Assembly (NCBI GenBank): GCA_025999455.1
Contig: AP024683.1
Span: forward strand, 813,501-877,500
Direction of reading: 5' to 3'
Length of the DNA: 64,000 nucleotides
From: Geminicoccaceae bacterium
Lineage (GTDB): Bacteria; Pseudomonadota; Alphaproteobacteria; Geminicoccales; Geminicoccaceae
A program made the translations under genes and the position numbers. Of the stretch, positions 23,215 to 41,080 are shown in pieces. Under the pieces are notes generated by a model. It ran no database searches. It was not told the DNA's origin and was given only the letters and a program-made list of their open reading frames with translations. Position 1 is the stretch's first letter; every line of letters begins with the position of its first letter.

Positions 23215-25552
<2,338 letters not shown>

Positions 25553-36056: not shown

Positions 36057-37415
36057 ATGCCGGCCTACGAGATCATCGTCGTCATTTTTCTGATCTCGTT
36101 CATCCTTTCGCTGTTCACCGGCTTCCCGATCGCCTGGCTCCTGGGTGGCCTGAGCCTGCTCTTCGCCTGGGTCGGGATCACCCTTTATCACGTCTTCGAC
36201 GTCGACACCTTCATGCTCGCCGACTGGTCCCGGTTCGCGATCCTCGTCGATCGCATCTGGAACCAGATGGAGAACTGGGTCCTCGTCTCGCTGCCCAACT
36301 TCGTCTTCATGGGCTTGATGCTCGACCGGTCGGGCGTGGCCGAGACGATGATGCGCAACTTCGCGGGGCTCTTCGGCCGGTTCAACGGTGGGCTCGCTCT
36401 GACGGTCGTGCTGATCGGCATCCTCTTGGCCGCCTCGACCGGCATCGTCGGCGCCTCGGTCGTCCTCCTCGCCGTCCTCTCGCTGCCGATCATGCTCGAG
36501 CAGGGCTATTCGAAGAAGCTCGCGAGCGGGGTGGTCGCCGCCTCGGGCACGCTCGGCATCCTGATCCCGCCCTCGATCATGCTCGTCATCATGGCCGACC
36601 AACTCGGCCTCTCGGTCGGCGATCTGTTCATGGGGGCGGTTTTTCCCGGCCTCTTGTTGGGTGGACTCTATCTCCTCTACGTGATCCTGGTCGGGCTCTT
36701 CTTCCCGAAGGTGGCACCGCATCCGCCCGACCTCGAGCCCGTGAGCTGGCGGCTCGTGCGCGACACGCTGCTTTCGATCCTCGCACCCCTCTTCTTGATC
36801 CTCGCCGTTCTGGGCTCGATCTTCGCCGGCATCGCCACACCCACCGAAGCCTCCGGATTGGGTGCCTTCGGGGCGACCCTGCTCGCGGCGGCGAACCGCA
36901 AGCTCGACTTCGCGACCCTGCGCGAGGTGTGCCGCGAGACCGCGCTCACGACCGCCTTCATCTTCGGCATCTTCTTGGGGGCGACCGCCTTCGCCCTCGT
37001 CATGCGCTCGCTCGGTGGCGACGAGCTCGTCGCCGAAACGTTGAAGGCGTTGCCTTTCGACCCGAACGGGATCGTCCTCTTCATCCTGGCGATCGCCTTC
37101 CTTGCCGGCTTCTTCCTGGATTGGCTCGAGATCACCCTGATCATCCTGCCGCTCGTCGCACCCGTGGTGAAAGACCTCGGCTTCGAGCCCACCTGGTTCG
37201 TCGTCCTGTTCGCGCTGTGCCTGCAGACCTCGTTCCTGACCCCGCCCGTGGGCTTCTCGCTCTTCTACCTGCGCGGCGTGGCACCGCGGTCGATCGGCAC
37301 GGTCGACATCTATCTGGGCATCGTCCCCTTCGTGCTGCTCCAGCTCCTGGCGGTCGCGATCGTCTTCACCTGGCCGCAGCTCGTGCTGTGGCTGCCGGCC
37401 AAGATGTACGGGTGA
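36057..37415 (+). CDS. TRAP transporter large permease, COG4664-type
   Basis: A 452-residue permease with about twelve transmembrane segments. Motifs are AASTGIVGASVVLLAVLSLP, ASGTLGILIPPSIMLVIMAD and GIATPTEASGLGAFGA, all typical of the mannitol/chloroaromatic group of DctM. It follows dctQ by 28 bases with an AAGAAAG site. The system should import an organic acid with sodium. Confidence 0.92.
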   Translation: MPAYEIIVVIFLISFILSLFTGFPIAWLLGGLSLLFAWVGITLYHVFDVDTFMLADWSRFAILVDRIWNQMENWVLVSLPNFVFMGLMLDRSGVAETMMRNFAGLFGRFNGGLALTVVLIGILLAASTGIVGASVVLLAVLSLPIMLEQGYSKKLASGVVAASGTLGILIPPSIMLVIMADQLGLSVGDLFMGAVFPGLLLGGLYLLYVILVGLFFPKVAPHPPDLEPVSWRLVRDTLLSILAPLFLILAVLGSIFAGIATPTEASGLGAFGATLLAAANRKLDFATLREVCRETALTTAFIFGIFLGATAFALVMRSLGGDELVAETLKALPFDPNGIVLFILAIAFLAGFFLDWLEITLIILPLVAPVVKDLGFEPTWFVVLFALCLQTSFLTPPVGFSLFYLRGVAPRSIGTVDIYLGIVPFVLLQLLAVAIVFTWPQLVLWLPAKMYG

Positions 37416-37518
37416 AGCACGCGGGCGAGGCCTCGGCCGCGGGGTTTCGATCGGGTCGATGAGCCTTTCGGGTGCCGTGGTCAGCTTCGGAGCGGGGCCG
37501 ACGACGGCGGAGGGTGTC

Positions 37519-38277
37519 GTGCGGGCTCGAGTTCGAGCCCTGTTCGGCGTGTTGCTACTCGTGATCTCCGGCTGCACCGGGACCCAGTCCCAGCTCGCGC
37601 CGGACCTCGCCATCGGGCAGCCGGGCGAAGCGGCGGTGCCGTTCCCGGACGACAAGGTGCCCGTCCTGCCGCCCGACCTCGAGGTGGGCGAGGCCACCCT
37701 CGATTCCGAGTTCACGCCGCGGGCCGATCGGACCGAGGAGGCCAGGCGCCACGTGATCGCCGCTCTCGAGGCGAAGCTCTCCGAGCGGGTGCGGTTCGAG
37801 CGGCTCGACGAGGCGAGCCTCGACCCGGCCGAGAAGGCCGACTACGAGCGGTTGGTCTCGCTCCTGCGCGCGGTTGCGAAATCGATCTCGCCCGACCGAG
37901 GACGGCCGACGAGTCGCGGTTGGCTCGACTGGTCGGTCGGGGACACCGGGAAGCCGTTGGCGAAATCGCGCGGCGCGCGCTACGCGCTGTTTCTCCGGAT
38001 CCGCGACACCCATGCCTCCACCGGCCTGGTCCTGGCCAACTTGGCGGTGTTCACTTTGGCGATCGTCACGGCCCCTCACGGAGGGCAAAGCGGGTGGCTC
38101 GCGCCCATGATGAGGGTCGGCGAGCATTTCGGGACCGCCGATCTCGTGGATCTCGAAACCGGGCGGATCCTATGGCACAACCGCATGCGGTCGGCCTCGC
38201 TCGAGGCCGATCTGCGGACTCGAAAGGGCGCGGAAGCGGCGATCGAGGCGTTGCTCGAAGACGTGCCGATCCGATGA
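37519..38277 (+). CDS. Predicted lipoprotein of unknown function (paralogue of next gene)
   Basis: A 252-residue protein with a lipoprotein signal (ALFGVLLLVISGC) starting at GTG 37519 behind a GGAGGG site. The mature part has no family I recognise. It shares with the next gene the pattern of an ATLDSEFTPRADRTEEAR-like entry, a central DPAEKADYERLVSLLRAV helix, an LAKSRGARYALFLRIRDTHAS segment, a short hydrophobic stretch, and an ending DLVDLETGRILWHNRM. A shared function of the two proteins, perhaps as envelope partners, is inference. The gene is intact, unlike the following three. Confidence 0.65.
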   Translation: MRARVRALFGVLLLVISGCTGTQSQLAPDLAIGQPGEAAVPFPDDKVPVLPPDLEVGEATLDSEFTPRADRTEEARRHVIAALEAKLSERVRFERLDEASLDPAEKADYERLVSLLRAVAKSISPDRGRPTSRGWLDWSVGDTGKPLAKSRGARYALFLRIRDTHASTGLVLANLAVFTLAIVTAPHGGQSGWLAPMMRVGEHFGTADLVDLETGRILWHNRMRSASLEADLRTRKGAEAAIEALLEDVPIR

Positions 38278-38423: not shown

Positions 38424-39180
38424 GTGCGCTCGCGGACACGCATCGTCCTCGCGATCCTGTCGCTGGTTCTCGTCGGATGCGCTTCCGGAACGGAGGAACC
38501 GAAAGTGGTCCCGAAGAACGTGATCATTTCGGCCCCGCAGGGCGAGAAGATCAAGCTCGTCCTGTTGCCGCCCGACGTGGAGCGGGGCGTTCACGGGATG
38601 ACGATCGGCTATCAAGCGCGCGGGGATTGGACCGAGCGGGCCGCGCGCAACTTGACCGACGCTCTGAAGGCGAAGCTCTCGAACAGGTTCGAGGTCGAGC
38701 TGCTCGACGAAGCGACGATGAGCCCCGCGCAGCGCCGACTACGGGCGGCTCGGGGCGCTCCTCCGAGCGGTTCGCGAGACGCTCGGTGCCGAGAAGAAAC
38801 TTCCGACCCTGGAAGAGCGGTTGCCCTTGTCCATCGGCGGGGCCGGTCGGTGGTTGGCCGTCTCGCACGGCGCGCGATACGCCCTCGCTGTCCAAATGAA
38901 GGACTATCAACTCCGTAGCGGCGCCGAAACCTACAATTGGATCATGGTTTTGACAGTTTTGATGGGAACGGCCTTCGGAGTACCTCCATCTGGATCGGCG
39001 GAGATATTCATAGAACCGGACAGGAGTGCGACTGCCGTGCTCGCCGATCTCGAGGACGGGCGGATCGTCCGGTACAATTTCCGGTGGGGATTGCCGGTGG
39101 ACATCCGGACGCCCGAGGGTGCGGGAGCGCTCGTCGACGAATTGTTGAGCGATTTCACTCTGAGCGAGGCCCGCTCGTGA
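38424..39180 (+). pseudogene. Lipoprotein paralogue with a frame break
   Basis: It starts at GTG 38424 behind AGGGGGC and has a clear lipoprotein signal (IVLAILSLVLVGC). The first frame runs correctly to LLDEATMSPAQ and then degrades near 38730-38735. In the next frame DYGRLGALLRAVRETL matches the same helix of the upstream paralogue and reads on to LSDFTLSEARS. One missing base explains it. Corrected, it would be about 252 residues like its neighbour. The C-terminal part has a LAVSHGARYALAVQMKDYQL segment and the ADLEDGRIVRYNF ending. The stop overlaps the next gene start (GTGA). Confidence 0.7.
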
Positions 39181-40389
39181 TCGCGATGCCCGCGCCTCGC
39201 TGCTCCTGCTCGCTCTGGCCTCTTGCGCCGGCCCGTACGAGCCCGCGCAGCCGGAAGGCGACGTGCGGCTCTCGGCGGATCGGAAGGAAGCTCGCTCGCG
39301 GAGCTCCGGCCGGGTCGTCCAGCAGGCGGATCTCGAAGCCTATCGACGGCGCGTCTTGGGTCGGGTGGTCGCGGAGCGCTGCGCCGAGCTCCGCCTCTAC
39401 GTCGTCGACCGACCGGGTTTCAGCGCAAGGGCTTGGCCGAACGGCGTCATCGAGATCAGGACCGGTGCCTTGCTGCGCGTGGAGAACGAGGCGCAGCTCG
39501 CGTTCCTGCTCGCCCACGAGGCGACCCACCACGAGAACGGGCACACCGACCGTGTTTGGCAATGGCTCCTCGGCTATCCGCCGTCCCGGCTCGTCGAGGC
39601 GCTGCTCTTCGACATTGAACAACGAGCTAGGGGAGAACGAGGTTGGCAGCGATTCGACGTCCCGCCGTTGGCCGTGTTGTTGAGATCACGCTATGATTGC
39701 GGGATGGGGTTGGAGGCCGAGCGAACGAGCCTCGAGCGGCTCGCCGCCGCCGGCTACGATCCGAAGGAAGCGCCCCGGCTCTGGGAAGCGCTCCTCGAGG
39801 AAGCGACCATTCTCGAAGGCTCGGAGTGGTTGTCGGGGCCGCTCGGTTGGATCTGGCGCCAAGATCGTGAGCCCGCTCGTGTCGGGACGCCCGAGCGGTT
39901 GCCGTTCGTGGTGATCCACGGCCTCGATGCCGAGGGGGTCGCGCGCTTGCGCGCGCAGGCTGCCACCCTGCCGCCACCGTCTTCCCCGACCCGATCGGCC
40001 GAGACGCTTATCGATCGGTCGTGGCGCGCTTCCGCGGTGCCTGGCTCCGGGCGGAGCTCCGTCAGCTGCACTTCGAGGCCGACGTCCTTCTACTCGAGCG
40101 ACTGCGCGCCGCCGAACCCGACTCGGGCGAGCTCCTGTTCTTCGCGGGTGAGCTCCGACGACTGCGCGGCGAGCCCGGCGATCTCGAAGCGGCCCTCGCG
40201 CTCTTCGAGCAGGCTCGCGACCGGCCGGACGCGCCGGTCGAGGTCTGGCGGTCGATCGGCTTCGTGGCCGCGCAGCTGGGCCTATCTTCGACGGCACGAG
40301 AGGCGCTCACGACCTGTCTCGCCCGAGCGCCCGAGGCGGTCGATCGCGCGCTCGTCGAAAAGACGCTCGCCGAGCTCGGACGAAGCTGA
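39177..40389 (+). pseudogene. Lipoprotein M48-like metallopeptidase with TPR-like tail, two frame breaks
   Basis: The reconstructed protein has a lipoprotein signal (ASLLLLALASC), a peptidase M48 domain with zinc motif HEATHHENGH (the family HExxH) and a later GLEAERTSLERLAAAGYDP segment, then a TPR-like helical tail (AALALFEQARDRPDAPVEV). Two single-base losses are implied: near 39189-39193, between the GTG start and the signal, and near 39975-39980 after AATLPPP, where the next frame continues VFPDPIGRDAYRSVVARF. M48 lipoproteins of the YfgC/BepA type help outer-membrane quality control. Its stop shares one base with the next start. Confidence 0.7.
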
Positions 40390-41080
40390 TGCGCAAGCTT
40401 CCGCTCGCCCTCTTTTTCGCCGTGCTCCTCGCGGCTTGCCGGGGCGGACCGATCATTCGGATCGCCCCCGGCGAGGTCGCGACGAGCCGCCTCGCGGTAC
40501 GGACCGACATCGCTTGGACGGAGATCAGGGATCCGACCTCGTGGGGCTGGCCGAAGCAACGGTTCTGGAGTGTGCACGGCCCGCTGCTCGACCGCCTCGT
40601 GCTGGTCGCAGATCTGGCCGAGGGCGAACAACTGCAACTCACGGATTTCGAGACGCGCACGAGGGAGCCGGCGGTTCCGTTCCGCGCCACGGCGAGCGGG
40701 GCCGAGCTCGCCGAGTTCGTCCTCGCGAGCCTGGAGCGGCAGGGCTTCGCCGGGGCGACGCTCGATTCGCGCCGCCCGGTCTCGTTCGCAGGTGGCGAAG
40801 GGATCCACGCCGAGTTCCGCCTGCGCGACGGCCGGACCGGGGTCGCGCACCGGGGTCTCGCCCTCGCCCGGATCGTCGGGTTCGGCTCTTCGCGATCATC
40901 TTCGTGGCCGCCGAGGATCACTGTTGCCCGACGCTCCTGCCGGCGGTCGAGCGGATCGACGGGTCGGCGCGGATCGTCCGAGGCGATCAGAGCGCGGCGG
41001 CGCGGCTCTCCTCGACGAGCCACTCGGTGAAGGCCCGCACCCGCGGGCTCTCCGGCATACCCTCGGGCCGGACCCGGTAA
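40389..41080 (+). pseudogene. Predicted lipoprotein with a probable C-terminal frame break
   Basis: The ATG at 40389 overlaps the previous stop (TGATG). A lipoprotein signal LALFFAVLLAAC is followed by about 150 residues with RTDIAWTEIRDPTSWG and a HRGLALARIVG strand. Near 40880 the frame leaves family-like sequence; in the next frame RLFAIIFVAAEDHC and LLPAVERIDGSARIV complete a plausible domain ending. One lost base would explain this. That second frame has no stop until 41080, inside the convergent LysR gene, so the true end is uncertain. No named family is recognised. Confidence 0.55.

Follow-up and report, generated by a model that had tools for sequence, protein, structure and literature searches.

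M48 metallopeptidases of the BepA/LoiP type (PF01435; NCBIfam M48_BAM_BepA and M48_lipo_LoiP) carry an M48 domain and a TPR tail in one exported protein. PMC7950410 names the glutamate that acts as third zinc ligand (E201 of BepA), and describes the HPx4R active-site-plug motif as conserved throughout PF01435. The same arrangement of domains is encoded at the locus studied here, which lies in the window (the whole 64-kb stretch that was analysed, corresponding to positions 813501-877500 of a genome, here G000, that consists of a single contig of 3,762,466 bases and is 99.69% complete). The gene order is DctM (TRAP transporter), lipoprotein 1, lipoprotein 2, M48 peptidase with TPR tail, lipoprotein 3 and LysR. 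A preliminary description had noticed a cluster of frame breaks in this operon and had attributed it either to recent decay of one operon or to a stretch of poor sequence.

Results

Frame breaks and a lost stop codon

The features of the locus are as follows; frames are given as position modulo 3.

36057-37415: DctM, TRAP transporter gene, upstream flank of the operon
37459-38277, + strand: lipoprotein 1, frame intact, PelC-like fold by prediction (open frame; AlphaFold model; Foldseek matches to PelC)
38424-38732, + strand: lipoprotein 2, first part, frame 0; diverged paralogue of lipoprotein 1
38733-38736, + strand: break 1, in lipoprotein 2, net -2 (equivalently +1); coding-model call at 38733
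38737-39180, + strand: lipoprotein 2, second part, frame 1, stop at 39178-39180
39182-39976, + strand: M48 peptidase lipoprotein, catalytic part, frame 2 (Pfam PF01435)
39189-39195 (approximate), + strand: break 2, M48 start codons versus lipobox, net -1
39515-39529, + strand: HExxH zinc motif, present as HEATH
39707-39721, + strand: ExxxD site, which holds the third zinc ligand; Gly and Glu in the window, Glu and Asp in 12/12 intact orthologues
39917-39937, + strand: HPx4R active-site-plug motif, degenerate (HGx4G)
39972-39988, + strand: break 3, between the catalytic and TPR parts of M48, net -1; coding-model call at 39971
39988-40389, + strand: TPR tail of the M48 lipoprotein, frame 1, stop at 40387-40389
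40389-40871, + strand: lipoprotein 3, first part, frame 0; PsbP/DcrB-like fold (predicted on the G002 orthologue)
40872-40888, + strand: break 4, in lipoprotein 3, net -1 (nucleotide alignment with G004 and G002)
40889-41080, + strand: lipoprotein 3, second part, frame 2, running on over the 3' end of LysR
From 40987, opposite strand to the operon: LysR gene (Pfam match)

Three-frame translation recovered all four breaks where they had been placed, near 38730, 39190, 39977 and 40880, and together with comparison with two genomes of the same genus (G002 and G004) it bore out their assignment to lipoprotein 2, the M48 gene (two breaks) and lipoprotein 3. The proposal that each break is explained by one missing base stands for breaks 2, 3 and 4 (net -1) and has to be given up for break 1, where the window has 4 nt and the paralogous lipoprotein 1 and the homologues of G002 and G004 have 6, that is two codons, so that the net change is -2. 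At break 2, the possible start codons GTG (39177) and ATG (39186) are read in frame 0, whereas the M48 lipobox is read in frame 2; in the lipobox frame no ATG, GTG or TTG was found upstream of 39263, and the G002 orthologue has a start codon in frame with its own lipobox. An alternative M48 start in place of break 2 was considered and rejected, as the first ATG, GTG or TTG in frame, at 39263, lies past the lipobox. Counted on the sequences, break 3 has 23 nt against 24 in G002. Break 4 was missed by the coding model described below. A fifth lesion is a substitution: the stop codon of lipoprotein 3, TGA in G004 and G002, is CGA at 40979-40981 in the window, so that the frame stays open over the end of LysR as far as 41080.

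The DNA around all four breaks has a high G/C content and contains short runs or repeats, a setting in which assembly errors occur too, and individual breaks may still be sequence errors. The stretches between the breaks mostly retain a codon-like GC content, and decay would thus have to be recent.

The intact operon in other families

The preliminary description had suggested a comparison with relatives for intact frames. A search of 190 genomes of the class detected the lipoprotein in 12, including that of the window. In each of the other 11, which represent 10 families, the lipoprotein and M48 genes are adjacent and each is in one frame (11/11, although a contig end truncates one of the lipoproteins); 10 of the 11 have lipoprotein 3 next in line. 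Together with G002, these genomes provide 12 M48 orthologues, every one of them unbroken.

This bears on the idea of programmed recoding or phase variation, in which ribosomes would read across the breaks or the breaks would serve as an on-off switch, and which the short GC dinucleotide repeat at break 1 might suggest. The absence of a break from all 12 M48 orthologues argues against it, as do the unequal net shifts (-2, then -1 three times) and the lack of any long repeat tract seen at the breaks; to our knowledge there is no precedent for four recoding sites in one operon. We regard this explanation as the least credible of those considered here.

Loss of conserved residues

The catalytic part of the M48 protein scores 37.8 and 37.4 bits against PF01435 in two cuts, above the curated cut-off of 20.3, and the intact G002 orthologue scores 89.6 against the 37.4 of the window copy. 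The TPR tail is 60% identical to that of G002 and matches TPR_9 with E 5e-07 and 30.1 bits, below the Pfam cut-off of 35 bits. Of the features expected in a functional M48 peptidase, the Pfam score and the HExxH motif are present; the third-ligand glutamate and HPx4R are gone, and breaks 2 and 3 deprive the gene of a single open frame with a start codon.

We counted how many columns that are invariant in the 12 intact orthologues have changed in the window. The catalytic part has lost 6 of 30 such columns, among them the third zinc ligand and two residues (P and R) of HPx4R, and the tail 1 of 7; the alignment omits a short insertion that the window has immediately ahead of the ExxxD site. The total of 7/37 compares with 0-3 of 37-40 for each orthologue left out in turn and, pooled, with 14/458 (Fisher P 4e-4, columns taken as independent), while against G002 alone, the intact B copy (defined below) of the same genus, the excess is not significant (7/37 versus 2/39, P 0.08). 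In the lipoproteins, 5 of 18 invariant columns are lost from the second part of lipoprotein 2 and 3 of 19 from lipoprotein 1, which is still open and has 42% amino acid identity to its G002 homologue and 50% to that of G004. Lipoprotein 3 has no excess, with 1 of 6 testable columns lost in its first part and none testable in its second.

A second M48 gene of the G000 genome, with an open frame of 683 codons, lies outside the window (G000:C1:901845-902258).

Background rate of frame breaks

A frameshift-aware coding model was trained on 138 long open frames of the G000 genome and run on the window and on 14 control stretches of 20 kb from the same genome (280 kb). Its strict calls numbered 6 in the window and 7 in the controls, and the translations were examined at all 13 (strict calls only). 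Three of the window calls fall in the locus, one in pobA (~23850, - strand) and two (5634 and 47156) at ordinary gene boundaries; one of the seven control calls was judged a real break (TssC, L033 ~417) and the other six gene boundaries. The claim that elsewhere in the 64 kb only pobA is broken therefore holds within the reach of the model, which recovered 159 of 212 simulated single-base deletions as strict calls and 192 of 212 as calls of any kind. Two background breaks in 341 kb, corrected for this sensitivity, lead one to expect 0.02 breaks in the 2.66 kb of the locus. The Poisson P for the four breaks is then ~8e-9, or 4e-5 for three if 8 background strict calls are taken as real, figures that are generous because the locus was picked for its breaks.

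The gene broken at ~23850 encodes an FAD monooxygenase (window 23215-24431, - strand), presumably pobA; its lone break stands beside a short C run and both halves match FAD_binding_3. It aligns over nearly its whole length in all five other genomes of the genus (BLAST, 75-82% DNA identity), and its break may accordingly have arisen by sequencing error or by mutation in the very recent past. The TssC/VipB gene (type VI secretion sheath; - strand, G000:C1 ~350417) likewise has a lone break, beside a G run, and both its halves match VipB models.

The main alternative to decay is local poor sequence, with some or all of the four breaks being consensus errors over fast-evolving working genes. That the genome is one contig of 3.76 Mb makes a long-read assembly likely, and the TssC and pobA breaks lie beside short G or C runs, as indel errors would; in the pobA alignments, moreover, every other indel whose length is not divisible by three has a compensating partner, which together with the near full-length matches in the five relatives fits an error in that gene. 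Clustering by itself does not decide the matter, since a bad patch of sequence clusters too. However, the density of breaks in the locus is roughly 200-fold that of the remaining sequence examined, the frames of DctM and lipoprotein 1 on one side and LysR on the other are open, and break 1 involves two bases. Indel errors also do not explain the loss of the zinc ligand, of HPx4R and of the stop codon, nor the lesions of a sister genome described below. Poor sequence is thus less likely than decay as the sole cause, and we hold it to be improbable, if the strongest of the alternatives; for any single base that half of the preliminary description may still apply.

The locus in the same genus

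Six genomes of the genus were searched, that of the window included; the five relatives are drafts, 95-99% complete. A profile search of the genome contigs with the lipoprotein alignment returned two loci only, one in G004 (contig C98, JAILZQ010000047.1, Geminicoccaceae isolate HOT.CON.139) and one in G002 (contig C221, JANWZN010000029.1, isolate SKYG96). In G004 (L019 2037-2912, - strand) the lipoprotein continues in frame into the M48 TPR tail, everything between them, the catalytic domain included, being missing, and lipoprotein 3 has a frame break, the one strict call in L019, at a different place from break 4 of the window; the coverage of this contig is 6.6, which makes an assembly fault possible there. 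G002 has two copies of the locus, both open, of which B consists of three separate genes and A has M48 and lipoprotein 3 fused. These copies (L020 1783-8582) are separated by another gene, and the copy that stands beside the TRAP genes is of B type in the window and in G004 and is copy A in G002.

G003 holds copy A only, an open frame of 656 codons in which M48 is fused to a lipoprotein-3-like domain (L069 3773-5743, - strand). Its sequence reads HALAH at the HExxH position, with Ala for the catalytic Glu, and it is possibly a pseudoenzyme. In G005, copy A is split over two contig ends, and a remnant matches 73 residues of the lipoprotein 3 of B. In the G005 contigs (L070 1920-3558 and L071 2742-3739), stops and frame breaks also occur in conserved neighbours (DctM and an ABC transporter), which suggests that this genome is either poorly sequenced or widely decayed and makes it weak evidence. 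Neither lipoprotein was matched in G001. An intact B copy is therefore seen in one of the six genomes, its absence from the others being uncertain to the extent that the five relatives are drafts. The coding model, applied to the related loci except L047 (794 bases), made no strict call in L046, L048, L069 or L020, and in G005 it made one in L070 and five in L071.

Between G000 and G004, the flanking genes DctM, DctQ and LysR have amino acid identities of 0.89-0.96 and dN/dS of ~0.05-0.13, compared with 0.57-0.67 and ~0.33-0.51 for the pieces of the operon (lipoprotein 1, lipoprotein 3 and the M48 tail). High values also occur between intact copies (dN/dS ~0.5 for copy A of G003 and G005), and because intact copies in the genus change fast as well, the contrast between flanks and operon indicates weak constraint and not decay as such.

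The open frame of G003 shows that catalysis can be lost in this genus without loss of the frame, and it lends some plausibility to the notion that the window M48 is a remodelled pseudoenzyme under selection, with only the frame breaks being errors. This would, however, call for errors at all four places and for a separate reason why lipoprotein 3 lost its stop codon, and we consider it quite unlikely.

Discussion

Our analysis favours, with a probability of roughly 80%, genuine mutation of a decaying operon as the source of the four breaks. The frames are broken relative to intact orthologues and the lesions are of more than one kind (indel, stop loss and loss of invariant sites), as in a pseudogene. 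The first of the two explanations originally offered, recent decay of one operon, is supported by observations that are independent of the breaks, namely the lost invariant residues, the zinc ligand among them, the loss of the stop codon and the different lesions of the sister genome. The decay is of an ordinary kind and probably recent; the operon affected is little known, and one close relative at least is losing it too.

The following course of events would account for these observations. The ancestral unit probably consisted of a PelC-like lipoprotein, a BepA-like M48/TPR lipoprotein and a PsbP/DcrB-like lipoprotein, a putative three-gene envelope operon that occurs in some alphaproteobacterial families. 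In this genus the operon is under weak constraint, and in the window genome lipoprotein 2 (an extra paralogue), the peptidase and lipoprotein 3 have lost their frames, the peptidase also its catalytic residues and lipoprotein 3 its stop codon. With frames and catalytic residues lost, no functional peptidase should come from the locus, and we infer that this function is absent there, a loss that the second M48 gene of the genome may make tolerable. The lipoboxes, the predicted folds and the BepA-like partner lead us to infer an envelope role for the operon.

As a more tentative proposal, which we think has somewhat less than even chances, the intact ancestor could be an undescribed alphaproteobacterial envelope module whose PelC-like ring-forming lipoprotein cooperates with a BepA-like M48/TPR protease and a PsbP/DcrB-like lipoprotein in outer-membrane assembly or export. 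It would occur twice in the genus, as copy A, where M48 is joined to lipoprotein 3, and as copy B, and be repeatedly lost, the window having frozen one step of such a loss.

Apart from the locus itself, the case illustrates how, even without reads, clustered breaks in a genome assembled as one contig can be set against the possibility of bad sequence, by means of lesions other than indels and of a relative in which the operon decays differently. A three-gene envelope operon is also brought to notice, and neither of its two lipoproteins scored above a Pfam or NCBIfam cut-off in any copy that was examined. Two matches below cut-off, DUF3645 for lipoprotein 3 (E 0.025) and SPW_0924 for lipoprotein 1 (E 0.13), were set aside.

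Comparison with known systems

The predicted fold of lipoprotein 1 resembles the outer-membrane lipoprotein PelC, the 18 best Foldseek matches all being PelC or PelBC chains (E 6e-7 to 3e-4). Their TM-scores are at most 0.65 by target length and 0.34-0.40 by query length, with 11-14% identity, and the AlphaFold model has a pLDDT of 71 from a shallow alignment of 4 sequences; FlgT and HpaA also match, more weakly than PelC. This likeness is one of predicted fold, and the neighbouring genes that were read are those of a TRAP transporter, M48, lipoprotein 3 and LysR. For the intact lipoprotein 3 of G002, a PsbP/SciW/DcrB-like fold is predicted (best match 2xb3, E 5e-5, 17% identity; pLDDT 70 from 3 sequences), and here too the likeness is limited to the fold.

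Compared with BepA and LoiP, the intact orthologue in G024 scores 68.9 bits against M48_BAM_BepA, far below the equivalog cut-off of 570 bits, and its match to M48_lipo_LoiP is also far below the cut-off of that model. The window copy differs further from this type, in that it keeps HExxH but has neither the third zinc ligand nor HPx4R, and its coding sequence is spread over several frames. With ordinary frameshift pseudogenes, finally, the locus shares more than one small indel, the loss of a stop codon, substituted invariant residues and a sister lineage that is losing the same genes, and from these it shows no difference in kind.
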